A stretch of 58,808 bases of DNA from Candidatus Saccharimonadota bacterium (GTDB lineage Bacteria; Patescibacteriota; Saccharimonadia; Saccharimonadales; Saccharimonadaceae), in NCBI GenBank assembly GCA_017460065.1, contig JAFUBT010000007.1:1-58808 (forward strand). Direction: 5' to 3'. Of the stretch, positions 20,351 through 39,778 are shown one piece after another. The stretch's first letter is position 1, and every line of letters begins with the position of its first letter. A program made the position numbers and the translations under genes. The notes under the pieces are model-generated. The model worked only from the letters and a program-made list of their open reading frames with translations, had not been told where the DNA came from and searched no databases.

Positions 20351-21955
20351 CTATGGCCCCTCTCGTGGACGCTCGCCCTTTTGGGGGCGGGCGTCTTTTT
20401 TGTGGCGCACCCGTTCTAGTAAAACCGCCACGGCCGCCGCGAACAAAATCATGATTGGCGCCACGCCAAAGATTACGCCAGTTCTTACAACGTCCTGTCG
20501 TACAGTCTCCGGCTCTGGATCTCGCACCCGATCCGCTCGTAACCTTACCGGCTCATCGCCACCATCACCCCGTTCCGACAAATTGCTCCACTCAACCTTG
20601 GCCAGTTGAGCCTGCGACGCAGTAATTCGATATTCCTCGCCCACGTTGTATTCGGCATCCATCCAGGCAAAGGATAGCACCTCATCATCGCCCAAATACA
20701 AATCGCTGATTTGCAAAATATTGTTAAAAACCACATAACCCAGGTCGTAGCCATTCAGACGTACGAGTAAATACACCGCACCAGTCGGCGCTTCCACGCC
20801 TCTAGCATACACCACGCCCGCCGCATCGCGCACAAGCTCAATCTGCGGTGCCGGCAGTTTTGTCTCGGTCGGCATCCCCATGTGTACCCGTGTTGACGTT
20901 TCGGCCTGGACGCCATACGCATCCGTCACACGCAAGCGTACTAATCCATCCGCCGCAAAACTCCGCTGCATTTGAGCCACCCCATCTTGCCACCCATCCC
21001 CAAAATCCCATTCATAGCGCAAATCGCTACCTTGTACGCTAAAACTATGGCTCGCGTCGAATACTAGTTCCTCGCCGACCTGTGCATAATAGTCCTCCAT
21101 CGGCAAAATCGCCCACACCACATTCATCTCGTCCGCTAACGTCGCCTGGCGTTTAGCTAGCCGATGTTTTGGCAAGCGTTGCGCCACTATCTCACCAAAC
21201 CAGTTAATTCCCACTGCCGCATAATTGCTATGTCCAGAATTACGCAAAGGATTCTTGGAACTACCACAAATATAATCATTACTAGCACACCATAAACCAT
21301 ATTTGCCGCTTAGTTCGCCATATTCATAAGGATTACGCTCACCGAGTGAACCGTCATCAGTCTGACAATTTGGTACATAGATACGGTATTCCGACAGGTT
21401 TTTCCCTCGGCATGCGTCCGGATGCCAACCTTTCCCCTCCGGCAAACTTAGCTCTGGATCGCCAAACAGCCCAATATATACTACGTCGCGCGCAGCAAAA
21501 GCCTTGACTGCCTCGCTCACCACCATAGCGCCCTGCGAATAGCCGGCAAGCACCCACTGCGTCCCCCTACATAGCGCCGACCAAGTCGCATAATATTCGC
21601 GCAATTGCCGCACTCCAGCATTCACGCTCCTGCCAAACTCGTAATATTTGCCCGCTGAGATGTATGCGCCTAGCAATGTCTGAAAATCTGCTACCGATAC
21701 CGCGGGGTAGGGCAAATCTATAATTTCCGCGCCGTAACCTTGCCGCTTTGCGACTGCAGCCATTTTAGCCGCAAAAGCCTTTCACTCTGCCTCTTCATTA
21801 CGCTGCTGTCCAGAACCTCGTGCAAATACAACCTGCAAGTCTGCGCACCCATCCCCTCTCTCCGAATAGTAATCCTCGGCCGCCGCAGCCGCGCTAAGCC
21901 GTACGCCACCGAGCGCCATTCACAAACACGCCAAAACCAGTCATAACTTTTTCAT
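20351..21955 (-). CDS. Cutinase/PKD surface protein with three in-frame UGA codons
   Basis: The uninterrupted frame is 20351-21763 (470 residues), but its natural start is ATG at 21955. From there the frame reads MKKL*LVLACL*MALGGVRL, a clear signal peptide. CADLQVVFARGSGQ follows, the start of a cutinase-type alpha/beta hydrolase, then a third UGA (EEAE*KAFAAK). The UGAs are at 21941-21943, 21920-21922 and 21782-21784; no UAA, UAG or frameshift is present. Downstream are the nucleophile motif AGYSQGA, a PKD-like domain (YEWDFGDGW), and a membrane helix with basic tail. A CATACT box ends 6 nt before the ATG. Either a recent pseudogene or UGA read-through at Trp positions; the remaining ten Trp codons are all UGG. 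Confidence 0.7.
20368..20401 (+). terminator. Terminator inside the 3' end of the convergent cutinase gene
   Basis: An 11 bp stem GACGCTCGCCC / GGGCGGGCGTC (one G-T pair), followed by six T. It ends the 20089 transcript. On the minus strand the same DNA encodes the charged last residues of the cutinase-like protein. Confidence 0.85.
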
Positions 21956-22065
21956 GCCGCCAGTATGCCAAAACCTGACAGCCAATAAAAGCACGAGTGC
22001 AATGTTTTTTGCAGCCAACCCCACCGCAGCTACCAAAACCACCTGTAAAATGCTAAAATACAGAC

Positions 22066-22791
22066 ATGACAGATTTTGTAGAAATAAAGGATTTCCGTAT
22101 TTCCTTCGCCGGCAAAACCGTCATCAAAAAGTTGTCCTTTTCCGTCAAAAAAGGCGAGATTTTTGGGCTACTTGGCAGCAACGGCTCCGGCAAAACCACC
22201 ACTATCCGCACCCTCCTTGGCATCTACAAGGCAGACCGCGGCCAATTATTAATTAACGGCAAACCCTTCGACCAGAACTCCGACATTAAAGTCGGCTACC
22301 TGCCAGAAGAGCGCGGCCTCTACAAAAAAGAAAACGTCATCGACACTATGGTATATTTCGGTCGCCTGCGCGGCCTAAAAGACCCCAAGGGCTGGAGCAT
22401 GAAATACCTTAAACGTGTCGACATGGCCGACTACGCCAAGACCAAAGTCGAAAAGCTCTCTCAGGGCATGCAGCAGAAAATCCAAATCGGCATTACCATT
22501 ATGGGCGACCCCGATCTACTTATTCTCGACGAGCCCACCAAGGGCTTTGACCCGGTCAACCGTCGTCTCTTAATGGATATCATCGAAGAACTCCATACTA
22601 AAGGCAGCACAATCATCCTGATTACGCACTATATGGACGAGGTCGAACGTTTCTGTGACCGCATTCTACTACTTAAAGACGGCGTCGCCCGCGCCTATGG
22701 CACCATCAACGAAGTTCGCAATAAATTCCACCGCCGCTCCATCGATCAAATTTTCATCGACGTCTACGGCGCCAAAGAGGAGACCGCATAA
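22066..22791 (+). CDS. ABC exporter ATPase, NatA/ABC-2 type
   Basis: 241 residues. Walker A is GSNGSGKTT (near residue 40), the Q-loop region reads GYLPEERGLYKK, the signature motif is LSQGMQQK, and Walker B is LLILDEPTKGFDP. A C-terminal segment of about 30 residues resembles DUF4162. It powers export with the permease encoded next. TAAAAT (22054-22059) with TGC before it ends 6 nt ahead of the ATG, so the mRNA is probably leaderless. The last base of the stop codon is the first of the permease ATG. Confidence 0.93.
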   Translation: MTDFVEIKDFRISFAGKTVIKKLSFSVKKGEIFGLLGSNGSGKTTTIRTLLGIYKADRGQLLINGKPFDQNSDIKVGYLPEERGLYKKENVIDTMVYFGRLRGLKDPKGWSMKYLKRVDMADYAKTKVEKLSQGMQQKIQIGITIMGDPDLLILDEPTKGFDPVNRRLLMDIIEELHTKGSTIILITHYMDEVERFCDRILLLKDGVARAYGTINEVRNKFHRRSIDQIFIDVYGAKEETA

Positions 22792-24050
22792 TGTCCAGTA
22801 AAACTTTCCAAGTCGCTCACTTCGAAATCGTCCGCAATCTCAAGAAAATCAGCTTTTGGCTTGCCGCCATCGCCGTACCAATTGCCATGGCGCTCTACAT
22901 CGCTTTCGTAGCTTTAATTGGCGCCACCACCAACGAGCAAATCAGCGCCAACAACAACACCTCCGATCTTAGGCTCGGGCTCTACGATGCACTGGGCTAC
23001 GTGCAGCAATACAGCTTCATCAACGCCGACGAGCAAGAACAAACCGTTGCAAAAATCGCTTCACGCGAGCAGGGTCTCCAGGAGATTACCGATAATCACC
23101 TCGACGTTCTATATATTATCCCTGACAATTTCGCTACCGAGCATAGAGTAGAAGTCCACGTCAAAAACGGCGAAACAAGTATTTTCGATAACTACTCGGC
23201 GCCAATCAAACAACTACTTAACAACGAAGCCGCCAATCAAGTTGATGCCGTCAATTATGCCGTTATCGCACAGACCATCAATTACCAATCAGTCAATTAC
23301 GACCAAGAAGACAATCACATTATCGATCCGTCCGAGACCATCTCACGCATGGCTGCCCCAATTGCTGCTACGGTGTTGTTCTATCTCATCATCATTCTCT
23401 TTGGCAACCGCCTCTCCACCGCTATGGTCGAAGAAAAAGAAAACCGCATTAGTGAGCTGCTACTCACTAGCGTTAAACCAGGCCAGTTGATTGCCGGTAA
23501 AACCATTTCACTCATCGTCCTGGGCGTCATCCAGCTGATTGTACTCATCGTACCGGTCGTCCTTATGCTCATTATTGCCAATAACTACCATCTCTTACCC
23601 ACCAACTTCGTCATCGCGCCTAGTCTTGCGAGTATTCTCAGTAGCCTTTTGTTGCTATTTTGCGCCTTCTTCTTGTTCGCTTCTATTTGTGTTCTCATCG
23701 GCGTTGTCTCGCCCACCGCGCGTGATGCTAGCTCCTACGCCGGCATTCTCGTATTTTCCGTCGTAATTCCTTTCATGTTCTTTGGGCAAATGAACGCTAA
23801 TCCGGTGAATGCAATCGGCTACGTCTTGACCTACTTCCCGTTGTCGACACCGGCCGCGATGATGTTGCGAAGCATCTTCGGCAACCTCCCCACTTGGGAA
23901 TACTGGCTCGGCTTGGGTGAAATTGCGTTAGTTAGCTTCTTGTCGCTCCGACTTGCTGCCTACATTTTTCGCCGCAATGCCATTAGCTTTACTGCCAAAA
24001 TTAATCTGAAAAAACTCTTAGGGAAGCCCCGCAAAGCATGGAAAAACTAA
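22791..24050 (+). CDS. ABC-2 permease, NatB-like
   Basis: 419 residues with an N-terminal membrane helix (residues about 20-42), a large extracytoplasmic domain (about 45-180), and five or six helices from residue 185 on. VEEKENRISELLLTSVKPGQLIAGK is the ABC-2 permease signature. The family exports sodium, drugs or peptides, but the substrate is not evident. It overlaps the ATPase by 1 nt and murT by 13 nt, so exporter and cell-wall genes form one operon. Confidence 0.92.
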   Translation: MSSKTFQVAHFEIVRNLKKISFWLAAIAVPIAMALYIAFVALIGATTNEQISANNNTSDLRLGLYDALGYVQQYSFINADEQEQTVAKIASREQGLQEITDNHLDVLYIIPDNFATEHRVEVHVKNGETSIFDNYSAPIKQLLNNEAANQVDAVNYAVIAQTINYQSVNYDQEDNHIIDPSETISRMAAPIAATVLFYLIIILFGNRLSTAMVEEKENRISELLLTSVKPGQLIAGKTISLIVLGVIQLIVLIVPVVLMLIIANNYHLLPTNFVIAPSLASILSSLLLLFCAFFLFASICVLIGVVSPTARDASSYAGILVFSVVIPFMFFGQMNANPVNAIGYVLTYFPLSTPAAMMLRSIFGNLPTWEYWLGLGEIALVSFLSLRLAAYIFRRNAISFTAKINLKKLLGKPRKAWKN

Positions 24051-25273
24051 GCATCGCTCTCGGCAAAATCGTCCAAAGCGCCACCCGTTTGCGCGGTGGT
24101 GGTGGCTCTGCGCTGCCTGGACTTGTCGTAGAACGGAGCAATCCAGATTTTCTCAAAAATACTCTCAGTAAACTCAAGCACGGGCTCATCGTCGTGTCTG
24201 GAACAAATGGCAAGACCACCACCACCAAAGTCGTTAGCGAATTGCTCGCCAAGCAAGGGCTCAGGGTCTTTACGAACAAAACTGGCAGCAATTTCGTCCG
24301 CGGCGTCATTTCCGAGATTCTTGCCAATATTAAGCTGAACGGTAAGTTCGACTACGACATCGCCGTATTAGAACTCGATGAAGCGCACGCCGTCAAATTC
24401 TGCGAAGTTTGCCCCATCGACTACGCGCTCATCCTCAATGTTCAGCGCGACCAGCTTGACCGCTTTGGCGAAATCGACCACACCGCCGCATTACTGCAAA
24501 AAGTCGCCGACCATGCCCGCCGCGCCGTCGTGCTTAATCGCGAAGACCCCCGCGTACGCAAAATTAAGAGCCAACACGTCTACTATTTCGGCCTGTCCGA
24601 CCAACTCATTCAAGCTTTTCCGTCCGACGACAATCTGCTCGATGCAAACCAACGCCATGCCTCCAAGCTGTCCGCCCACTGCGTCCTTGAGTCACTTGAT
24701 GGCCAGACCGCACAATACAAAATTAACCGTCATAGCTACCAGTGCCAGCTGAGTCTCAAGGGCATCTACAATGCCTATAATGCCGCTGCTGCACTCGCAC
24801 TATGTCGCGTCGTCATGCCCGAACTTGCCCCCGCCAAACTTGTTGCCGACCTGGCCGACATCAACTCGGCCTTTGGCCGAGGCGAGAGCTTCCAAATCAA
24901 CGGTAGCGAAGTAGAATTGTTATTGGTCAAGAACCCCTCCGCCTTTCAGCTCAGCCTCAACTCTTTCGTCGACCGCAAGCACGACTATATGATTGCTATC
25001 AACGACAATGTGGCCGATGGCCGCGACGTCTCCTGGCTCTGGAATGTCGACTTTAGTAAGCTACAACACGTTGAAGTAGTCAGCGGCATCCGCGCCACCG
25101 ACATGGCTCTTCGTCTCAAGTATGATACTTGCAGCGTGGATACCGTCGAAGAAGACCTCGCACGTGCCCTCAAAGTGTTCGCTCATAGCAGCGACAAGCC
25201 CAAACGTATTTTTGCAACTTATACTGCCATGCTCGAAATCCGCAAAATCATATCTGGAAAGAGTATTTTATGA
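24038..25273 (+). CDS. murT: Lipid II isoglutaminyl synthase subunit MurT, zinc ribbon lost
   Basis: 411 residues. The Mur-ligase ATP loop VVSGTNGKTTTTKVVSELL lies at residues about 52-70, LELDEAHAVKF and NVQRDQLDRFGEID in the central domain, and the MurT-specific C-terminal DUF1727 block NDNVADGRDVSWLWNVDF near residue 325. With GatD it amidates the D-Glu of lipid II. Characterised MurT proteins have a Cys4 zinc ribbon inserted in the central domain; here that region (residues about 190-240) has no CxxC pair and is short. It overlaps the permease by 13 nt and gatD by 4 nt (ATGA), and ends with TGA. Confidence 0.92.
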   Translation: MEKLSIALGKIVQSATRLRGGGGSALPGLVVERSNPDFLKNTLSKLKHGLIVVSGTNGKTTTTKVVSELLAKQGLRVFTNKTGSNFVRGVISEILANIKLNGKFDYDIAVLELDEAHAVKFCEVCPIDYALILNVQRDQLDRFGEIDHTAALLQKVADHARRAVVLNREDPRVRKIKSQHVYYFGLSDQLIQAFPSDDNLLDANQRHASKLSAHCVLESLDGQTAQYKINRHSYQCQLSLKGIYNAYNAAAALALCRVVMPELAPAKLVADLADINSAFGRGESFQINGSEVELLLVKNPSAFQLSLNSFVDRKHDYMIAINDNVADGRDVSWLWNVDFSKLQHVEVVSGIRATDMALRLKYDTCSVDTVEEDLARALKVFAHSSDKPKRIFATYTAMLEIRKIISGKSIL

Positions 25274-25989
25274 GTGATTTAACAATCTTGCATCTATACC
25301 CAAAAGAGATGAACCTTTACGGCGATCACGGCAACATCTTAGCCCTAAAGCGGCGCGCCGAGTGGCGAGGCTATCAAGTTAAAGTCATCGAGCATCATCT
25401 CGGCGACACTATCCCCAAGCATGTCGATATTGTTTTCGGTGGGGGAGGGCAAGATTCTGGGCAGTCAAAAATCGAACAAGACCTCCGCAACAATGCCGCG
25501 CACATCAAAGAGCTTATCGATCAAGGCACGCCAGGACTGGTCGTCTGCGGTCTCTACCAATTATTCGGCGAATACTTCCAGACCAATGACCAACAAAAAA
25601 TTCAGGGCATCGGTGCACTCCGCTGCCACACTATTGCCGGTCCCACGCGCCTCATCGGTAATATCGTCATCAGCTCGCCCGAATTTGGCGAAATCGTTGG
25701 CTACGAAAACCATTCCGGTCTAACGCAACTCGCCAAAGATAGCCGTCCCTTCGGCACCGTCGTACAAGGCGCCGGCAATAATGGCACCGATCTAACCGAA
25801 GGCATCCTGTACAAAAACTTCATCGGCACCTATCTGCACGGCCCGATTTTGCCAAAAAACCCACGTGTTGCCGACTTCCTCATCCTCAAAGCACTGCAGC
25901 GCAAAGACCCCAGCATCAAACGGCTCAAGGCCTTAAACGACAATGTCGAACTCCACGCCCACAGCGTTGCTGCCAACCGGCCACGCTAA
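25270..25989 (+). CDS. gatD: Lipid II isoglutaminyl synthase glutaminase subunit GatD
   Basis: 239 residues, CobB/CobQ-like class I glutamine amidotransferase. It has LYPKEMNLYGDHGNILAL at the N-terminus, VFGGGGQDSGQ, the nucleophile Cys in GLVVCGLYQLFG, and the catalytic His in GTYLHGPILPKNP. It supplies ammonia to MurT for amidation of peptidoglycan stem peptides. The ATGA overlap with murT couples the two subunits. Confidence 0.95.
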   Translation: MSDLTILHLYPKEMNLYGDHGNILALKRRAEWRGYQVKVIEHHLGDTIPKHVDIVFGGGGQDSGQSKIEQDLRNNAAHIKELIDQGTPGLVVCGLYQLFGEYFQTNDQQKIQGIGALRCHTIAGPTRLIGNIVISSPEFGEIVGYENHSGLTQLAKDSRPFGTVVQGAGNNGTDLTEGILYKNFIGTYLHGPILPKNPRVADFLILKALQRKDPSIKRLKALNDNVELHAHSVAANRPR

Positions 25990-37848: not shown

Positions 37849-38133
37849 ATGGATCAAGCTACTTATACCCGACAACACCATTTACATCAGAACATCGAAG
37901 TCGATGCAACCTTCTCGCGCAATATTTTAGGCCACTGTCGGCCGATTGCCTTTCGCAATACATCTGGCAGAGAAGTCCGCATCAGCGAAATTGGCCTTGT
38001 TCACCCTAAGTACGATGGGCTCAAAACAATTTTTGCTTTCGACGTCACTGACGGCACCACCGACTACCGGCTCTGCCTCGACAGCGAAAATCTGAACTGG
38101 TACCTCGAATTCGAAGGAGATGCCGATGCCTGA
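37849..38133 (+). CDS. Small protein coupled to a Y-family polymerase
   Basis: 94 residues, beta-rich, paralogous to the product of 20089 (see there). It has HCRPIAFRNTSGREVRISEIG near the middle and NLNWYLEFEGDADA at the end. AAGGA lies 6 nt before the ATG. It overlaps the polymerase gene by 8 nt, so the two are translated together. In Firmicutes a small protein (YolD-like) also precedes UvrX-type Y-family polymerases; I see no sequence similarity to YolD, but the arrangement is parallel. A role as accessory or regulator of the polymerase is inference. Confidence 0.75.
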   Translation: MDQATYTRQHHLHQNIEVDATFSRNILGHCRPIAFRNTSGREVRISEIGLVHPKYDGLKTIFAFDVTDGTTDYRLCLDSENLNWYLEFEGDADA

Positions 38134-39373
38134 TTATCTTCCGCCACACCCCAGCAACGACACTATGTACATCGACCTCAATTCCTGCTTTGCCACTATC
38201 GAGCAGCAAGCACGTCCTATGCTGCGCGGCCGCCCTGTCGCCGTCACTAATCGCATTACCCCCAACGCCACTATTATCGCCGCCAGTTACGAGGCCAAGG
38301 CCTTCGGCGTCAAAGTCGGCATGCAGCGCTTTGCGGCCGAAGAGCTTTGCCCGCAACTAATTTTTGCCGAAACCGAGCCTAGCAAATATATCTTCGTCCA
38401 CCATAAGCTCCGTCGCATTATGCAAGATTACTCACCCAGCGTCACAATGAAGTCTATCGACGAGGGCGTACTTGATTTACACCAAGCGCCAGCGCGCATC
38501 CGTCAAATGCCCCATGCACAACTCGCCGCCGAAATTAAAGCACGTTTGCGCACCGAAATCGGCTGCTGGATGCGCTGCAATATCGGCATTGCCAGTAATC
38601 GTTTTTTGGCCAAAACCGCCGCTGAGCTACATAAGCCAGACGGCTTTGATGAAATTACCACCACCAATCAGCGCGCAATTTTCGCCCAACTTAAACTACT
38701 AGACCTACCCGGCATCAATGTCCGCATGCAGGCACGCCTCAATGCGGTCAATATCTTCACGCCCCTTGACTTGCTTGACGCCAGCGAAGACACGCTCGTC
38801 CGACTAGTCTGCCGGAGTATTGACGGCAGCAAATGGTATCGCCGCCTCCGCGGCATCGAAGTCGACCAAGCCGATCGCCCCATCCGCAGTATTGGCCGCC
38901 AATACGTACTTGAGAGCAAACAGCTCAGCCGCAGCGACATAGAAGCTCGCCTGATGCACCTTGCCGAGGACGTCGGTTATCGCCTTCGCAGCAAACAACT
39001 TTATGCCCGCGGCGTTTATCTTTGGGCATATGGCTACGACGGACAAAAACTCCACTATACCAAACTCGCTCCACGGGCCTTTAATACCGACCAGGCCATT
39101 CTAGCGCAAGCTAAAGCTCTATTCGCCCATGTCCCTACGCCGCAACGCATTATCGGCATTACGCTCTACAAGCTCCAAGCCACGGCCGACGCGCAACTCA
39201 GCTTCGAGCAATCAACTATCGACGCCCAGGAGCAGCTTTGTCTCGCCGCAGACCAAATCAACCTCCGCTTCGGCAATCGCAAAATCCACTACGCCGATAG
39301 CTGTAGCACCGACCACGTTAAGACTAAAATTCCTTTTGGCTCAACCCGCTATCTCGACCACTCCATCTCTTGA
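38126..39373 (+). CDS. Y-family DNA polymerase, UmuC/UvrX-like
   Basis: About 415 residues. The palm has MYIDLNSCFATIEQQ with the first catalytic Asp, and SIDEGVLDL with the Asp-Glu pair. IAASYEAKAFGVKVGM is the finger segment that follows, and IGIASNRFLAKTAAELHKPDG is the family signature. A helix-hairpin-helix (LKLLDLPGINVRMQARLN) and a little-finger domain complete the protein. The form SIDEGVLD and the small overlapping partner gene are closer to UmuC/UvrX than to DinB. GGAG 7 nt upstream favours the ATG at 38126 over the one at 38120. It ends with TGA inside the next -35 box. Confidence 0.93.
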   Translation: MPDYLPPHPSNDTMYIDLNSCFATIEQQARPMLRGRPVAVTNRITPNATIIAASYEAKAFGVKVGMQRFAAEELCPQLIFAETEPSKYIFVHHKLRRIMQDYSPSVTMKSIDEGVLDLHQAPARIRQMPHAQLAAEIKARLRTEIGCWMRCNIGIASNRFLAKTAAELHKPDGFDEITTTNQRAIFAQLKLLDLPGINVRMQARLNAVNIFTPLDLLDASEDTLVRLVCRSIDGSKWYRRLRGIEVDQADRPIRSIGRQYVLESKQLSRSDIEARLMHLAEDVGYRLRSKQLYARGVYLWAYGYDGQKLHYTKLAPRAFNTDQAILAQAKALFAHVPTPQRIIGITLYKLQATADAQLSFEQSTIDAQEQLCLAADQINLRFGNRKIHYADSCSTDHVKTKIPFGSTRYLDHSIS

Positions 39374-39398
39374 CTACAATGTTTTTTAATGTTACTAT
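39370..39398 (+). promoter_or_regulatory. Promoter with -35 overlapping the polymerase stop codon
   Basis: TTGACT (39370-39375) includes the TGA of the polymerase gene. After 17 bp comes TACTAT (39393-39398). The arrangement repeats that at 37355. Confidence 0.75.
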
Positions 39399-39463
39399 AT
39401 GAATTACCTCTACTGTCCCGTAGGGGAATACGCACTTTTCGTCAGGTCCGAAGGAGGTCCACT

Positions 39464-39778
39464 ATGTCCGTAGATTTAAGAAAGACCCTCATCCACGCCC
39501 GTACTGGTAAGACCGAGCTTGATGAGCTGGCACATTGCGTTGGCGAACAACTTCCCGTTGACTGTAACGCAACCGATATCGCCACAATTGCATGCAACAC
39601 CTTGGTTGGTCTTAAACATTACAAAAACCAACCAAACATGCAAGCGCTTACGGCTTACCTTGCACAAGGCGGCAACCCACTCCAATTGGGGGCCCAATTA
39701 GTCGACGTGTTCCAGCAAGATGCGCCAGATTTCGCCCAAGAATATGCCGCTACTAGCAAATTATTCTTTGGCGTATAG
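39464..39778 (+). CDS. Small helical protein of unknown function
   Basis: 104 residues, predicted all-helical by composition, with LDELAHCVGEQLPVDCNATDI and ALTAYLAQGGNPLQLGAQ. No family is recognised. The leader is about 59 nt and carries AAGGAGG at 39451-39457. With its consensus promoter and perfect terminator it belongs to the same class of independently expressed small genes as 7335, 17092 and 37432. Confidence 0.75.
   Translation: MSVDLRKTLIHARTGKTELDELAHCVGEQLPVDCNATDIATIACNTLVGLKHYKNQPNMQALTAYLAQGGNPLQLGAQLVDVFQQDAPDFAQEYAATSKLFFGV

Follow-up and report, generated by a model that had tools for sequence, protein, structure and literature searches.

Sense UGA codons in a cutinase gene and in competence and surface genes of a Saccharibacteria genus: a possible codon of two meanings

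Saccharibacteria are tiny parasitic bacteria, and the genus considered here comes from the gut. In Gracilibacteria and Absconditabacteria (code 25) UGA is read as glycine throughout the genome; the genus resembles them as another CPR lineage with sense UGA, but the amino acid there is a different one and the change is genome-wide. In Escherichia coli and the Q-beta coat cistron, as appears likely here, near-cognate tRNA-Trp(CCA) competes with RF2 and a following A favours read-through. There the product is a minor extension or noise, whereas in this genus UGA stands early or internally in several conserved chromosomal genes, so that all of their full-length product would need read-through. UGA is also read as tryptophan in other reduced bacterial genomes, those of Mycoplasma (code 4) and of the Patescibacteria family JAKLIH01, and in JAKLIH01 the change is genome-wide, RF2 has been lost, UGA is no stop and a UCA tRNA was found in two of four genomes (PMC13092985). 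The present genus, by contrast, keeps RF2 and uses UGA as a stop, and the tryptophan meaning appears limited to a few gene families.

Competence regulons such as those of ComX/SigH and ComK co-regulate comEC, dprA, comF and DNA-processing genes via a promoter box; the box in this genus differs from theirs, and there is an apparent additional gate at translation. Cultured Saccharibacteria are naturally competent, with ComEC, DprA and ComFC named among the core com genes (PMC10633639). Conserved in-frame stops without decay, as seen here, have been described as widespread in prokaryotic genes, and the excerpted text of that study mentions neither competence, sortase nor Saccharibacteria and describes no regulon of such a kind (PMC7918605). 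In searching the literature we came upon no previous account of UGA as tryptophan confined to such a gene set.

A cutinase gene interrupted by UGA

The window (the whole 58,808-nt stretch of DNA analysed, which is contig C3 in a 652,520-base Saccharibacteria genome) carries on its minus strand a gene whose product is predicted from sequence to consist of a signal peptide, a cutinase domain, a PKD domain and a C-terminal membrane anchor:

20351..21955, minus strand: cutinase/PKD surface-protein gene of 534 codons when UGA is taken as Trp; orthologues in 38 of the 44 other genomes of the genus
21987..22003, minus strand: promoter box ATTGCACTCGTGCTTTT (consensus ATTGnACTYRTGCTTT), with 31 nt between box end and ATG
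21962..21970, minus strand: extended -10-like element TGGCATACT, 6 nt upstream of the ATG
21941..21943, minus strand: in-frame UGA, codon 5 (signal peptide), next base C
21920..21922, minus strand: in-frame UGA, codon 12 (signal peptide), next base A
21782..21784, minus strand: in-frame UGA, codon 58 (E-UGA-K), conserved, next base A
21215..21847, minus strand: cutinase domain PF01083 with the GYSQG nucleophile motif (Pfam and fold match)
20888..21085, minus strand: PKD domain PF18911 (Pfam match)
20390..20461, minus strand: C-terminal helix followed by basic residues, a predicted membrane anchor (sequence and model)

Read from 21955 to 20351 the frame runs MKKL*LVLACL*MALGG...EEAE*KAFAAKM..., and its internal stops are exactly three, all TGA; it holds no UAA, UAG or frameshift. 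This bears out the original prediction that the signal peptide and the start of the cutinase are in frame with the 470-codon uninterrupted ORF, which begins at 21763. The ten TGG and three TGA codons that it counted recur on re-examination, and the CATACT that it placed near the true ATG lies at 21962-21967, a position occupied in relatives by TGGCATACT or TGGGATAT. When TGA is read as Trp the Pfam Cutinase score rises from 38 to 51 bits and the match reaches the domain start; at 50.6 bits against a curated cut-off of 25.9 the protein belongs to PF01083, and its GYSQG region (G138-G142) is invariant. A model of the protein built with the same reading matches cutinases and acetylxylan esterases in Foldseek, and residue 58 opens a helix (56-71) in a confident region (block pLDDT 89). 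PxTG-like motifs precede the C-terminal helix in relatives, and proteins of this type are possible candidates for sortase substrates. The divergent neighbours at 22066-25989 are an ABC-2 transporter and MurT/GatD-like peptidoglycan amidation genes.

Counting the window's own, 39 of 45 genomes of the genus have a cutinase match. At the codon-58 column, one of the three sites that the original prediction had put forward for comparison with orthologues, UGA stands in 14 genomes, UGG in 9 and Y, F or L in the remainder; at the codon-5 column UGA is shared with three others (G026, G001 and G036) and G009 has UGG. Other conserved Trp columns of the cutinase show TGG 21, TGA 4 and nothing else; TGG 31, TGA 1; TGG 19, TGA 2; and TGG 10, TGA 1. 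Across the family in the genus there are 45 in-frame TGAs, including a few true terminators, against a single TAG, an excess beyond chance, since as trinucleotides TAA and TAG jointly outnumber TGA. The single TAG lies in the cutinase of G020 (L015), whose sister has Tyr there. Some genomes of the genus have no UGA in the cutinase at all, and some 50 cutinases from other genera of the same order have no in-frame stop.

Codons upstream of the codon-58 UGA have a dN/dS of about 0.1, and the mature N-terminus shows zero non-synonymous changes among four close genomes. Because the cutinase strand encoded upstream of that UGA is under purifying selection, we take the long frame to be real and reject the idea that translation starts anew at the conserved Met that follows codon 58. 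Of the options raised in the original prediction, read-through is the one that the orthologues support, with UGA falling on conserved Trp columns, and decoding of UGA as tryptophan in these genes is well supported by the alignments, to the point of being very probable.

Gene families, base context and promoter box

An unbiased all-against-all read-through comparison over 2.1 Mb from seven genomes aligned 3017 TGG, 17 TGA, 2 TAA and 1 TAG with Trp. Antisense ORFs and gene ends had made the early scans noisy, and frame dominance was used to filter them; inspection of the 17 TGAs by eye left about 10 as genuine, with the others on antisense or upstream frames. The genuine ones all fall in the cutinase, the pilin/sortase operon, comFC and comM/yifB, and targeted looks added dprA, comEC and a UvrD-type helicase:

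L122:14704-16938 (genome G000, contig C2): UvrD-type helicase with UGAs at codons 2, 164 and 318, found by the box scan

The earlier idea that suppression of UGA limits secretion of a surface esterase is supported as regards read-through but was too narrow in scope: competence genes, pilin, sortase and helicase appear to use UGA in the same way. In the clade with the pilin operon, 8 of 8 pilins retain one UGA directly after the signal peptide, and in the sortases one of two Trp sites (IA-W-L, DD-W-xIYN) is UGA while the other is UGG. Two species have UGA at one Trp site of dprA (L-W-x-G-x-LP), and the UGAs of comM and comFC also fall on Trp sites. The presence of in-frame TGA in comEC had been predicted beforehand; it was found in 11 of 45 genomes, with no in-frame TAA or TAG. 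The one comEC sequence read, that of G010, has three in-frame UGAs, and G000 and G029 have none within the comEC domain. In NCBIfam and Pfam the read-through products come out as DprA, YifB, ComF, ComEC and a class B sortase, in some cases with scores under the curated cut-off. A conserved UGA with conserved protein on both sides of it, as in programmed UGA read-through, is found at cutinase codon 58 and in pilin, dprA and comFC; overall, UGA positions differ among species. Two further genes were seen with single in-frame stops. A family 2 glycosyltransferase of G029 (L186:9571-10290) has one UGA at FIDSDD-UGA and is apparently truncated downstream; it was left out of the gene set, with its UGA counted among the 33 non-cutinase contexts given below. 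A translation GTPase-like gene of G009 (L135:15696, motif DGKMGVEAQSETVWR*ADKYGIP) has one in-frame TAA at a position that is Gln in a relative.

A or C comes next after 68 of the 73 sense UGAs: in cutinases 40 of 40 (A 35, C 5, G 0, T 0) and elsewhere 28 of 33 (A 21, C 7, G 3, T 2). After TGG in the cutinase genes A or C follows in 165 cases and G or T in 151 (52% A or C), a contrast with sense UGA of P = 8e-11 by Fisher's test in which, however, the species are not independent. Terminal UGAs have no such bias, about half being followed by A or C. Sense UGAs thus stand in a leaky context, as in programmed UGA read-through; in E. coli, UGA followed by A is especially prone to misreading by tRNA-Trp, according to a passage of PMC5289835 citing Engelberg-Kulka 1981. 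In E. coli, read-through of UGA is 12% in the wild type (PMC9481147), and in one sequence context stress has raised it to as much as 80% (PMC11126739), rates that come from outside this genus and that would make a gate at UGA feasible.

In almost every cutinase orthologue within the genus the box ATTGnACTYRTGCTTT lies about 30 nt before the ATG, with a -10-like element downstream of it that is often TGGGATAT or TGGCATACT. The box also precedes dprA, comEC, comM, the pilin operon, topA, ftsK and rpsF and, in weaker form, comFC, and scanning for it led to the three-UGA helicase of G000. At a loose cut-off the scan is uninformative (212 matches against 179 in reversed sequence), so that top scores and positions relative to gene starts are what count. 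The distribution of the box suggests that the genes behind it are co-transcribed. Because topA (three genomes), ftsK and rpsF have the box and no UGA (L128, L165, L150, L122:961, L130:436), box and UGA appear to be separate layers.

Decoding of UGA and competing explanations

UGA is a normal stop elsewhere in the window, as originally predicted: 9 of the 40 clear ORFs of at least 200 codons end in TGA, against 22 in TAA and 9 in TAG. Of 1411 long ORFs in 2.1 Mb from the genus, 173 terminate in TGA, and in each of the seven genomes sampled TAA and TAG are both commoner as terminators. RF2 (prfB) is intact in G000, with its SPF and GGQ motifs, and most of the 45 genomes have two release-factor genes; no in-frame TGA occurs among the release-factor matches listed or among the more than 150 tRNA-synt_1 matches listed. 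A Y-family polymerase gene at 38120-39778 of the window terminates in TGA and another ORF continues in frame, and Pfam gave no sign of a read-through fusion of the two. A single tRNA-Trp, with the anticodon CCA, was found in G000. The 30 tRNA-Trp copies read across the genus are identical but for one T-arm base and have a 5-bp anticodon stem, A9 and G24, on which grounds an altered tRNA-Trp was rejected. Separately, G001 has an 86-nt tRNA-Trp match of 83% identity (C4:17950-18035) that looks as if it had an insertion of about 14 nt.

Our explanation, which we hold to be probable as a whole, is that UGA would have two meanings in this genus, a stop for ordinary genes by way of intact RF2 and tryptophan in a small set comprising comEC, dprA, comFC, comM/yifB, the UvrD-type helicase, the pilin/class B sortase operon and the cutinase-PKD protein. 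The set would be transcribed from promoters sharing the -35-like box, and at an early UGA followed by A or C either RF2 would terminate or ordinary tRNA-Trp(CCA) would read through to give the full-length protein, so that the fraction read through would set the output of the whole set. We infer the occurrence of read-through from sequence, and competition of tRNA-Trp(CCA) with RF2 is its likely means. Cell state could switch the set through the level of RF2, the charging or A37 modification of tRNA-Trp, or stress. MiaA, which in E. coli modifies tRNA-Trp adjacent to the anticodon, is present and might be one place where such control acts.

With modest confidence, we see the best single account of conservation, context, gene set and promoter in a regulatory gate on competence and surface display. 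Several points weigh against the explanation as a whole: several UGAs per gene, three in the window gene, would multiply losses; UGA sites vary by species and some genomes have none in the cutinase or the comEC domain; the box also stands before topA, ftsK and rpsF, which lack UGA; and related species share ancestry, so that site counts are not independent.

The main rival, which we consider unlikely, is that leaky UGA lets UGG-to-UGA changes survive in dispensable or little-needed genes with no regulatory role. Com genes made no significant contribution to fitness in Tn-seq of cultured Saccharibacteria (PMC10633639), both sites and numbers of UGAs vary between species, and selection for leaky A or C contexts would be expected under such drift too. 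Against it, 14 genomes retain the same UGA at codon 58 and all of the eight pilins keep theirs, UGA alternates between the two sortase Trp sites, the other gene families in the 2.1-Mb scan lack UGA, and a promoter box is common to the UGA genes.

A genus part-way to genome-wide UGA = Trp is decidedly improbable. The rarity of UGA as a terminator fits such a course, and one Patescibacteria family has completed it (PMC13092985), but intact RF2, the two release-factor genes of most genomes, the 173 long ORFs ending in UGA, the failure to find a UCA tRNA and the freedom from UGA of housekeeping genes (the synthetase and release-factor matches listed) all speak against it. Completed reassignment (code 4) was rejected, with RF2 present, UGA in use as a stop and no UCA tRNA found.

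Decoding by a missed suppressor tRNA with a UCA anticodon, or by a selenocysteine-type system, is more improbable still. The original prediction had raised a UCA tRNA, which did not turn up among the 43 tRNA matches of G000 (ARAGORN) or in a pattern search of 13 genomes; what favours a miss is that G000 is 89% complete and that the pattern covered tRNAs with a short variable loop only. The residues aligned with the cutinase UGAs are Trp or aromatic rather than the Cys expected of a selenoprotein.

Pseudogene decay and strain mixture, both entertained in the original prediction, are refuted for the family together with sequencing error, for despite the one TAG of G020 the sites are common to independent assemblies, in-frame stops are almost all TGA, purifying selection acts before the UGA and the window gene has no frameshift.

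Significance of a possible two-meaning UGA

In this genus the genes for comEC, dprA, comF, pilin, sortase and cutinase are cut short or overlooked by standard gene callers. If UGA is indeed a stop for most genes and tryptophan for the competence and surface set, nature would offer here, within a standard-code bacterium, a codon whose two meanings are divided according to what the genes do. Whether DNA uptake and host attachment form a termination-controlled regulon, switched on together when UGA read-through rises, we regard as evenly balanced; if they do, termination fidelity would be linked to natural transformation and to the cell surface of these epibiotic Patescibacteria.
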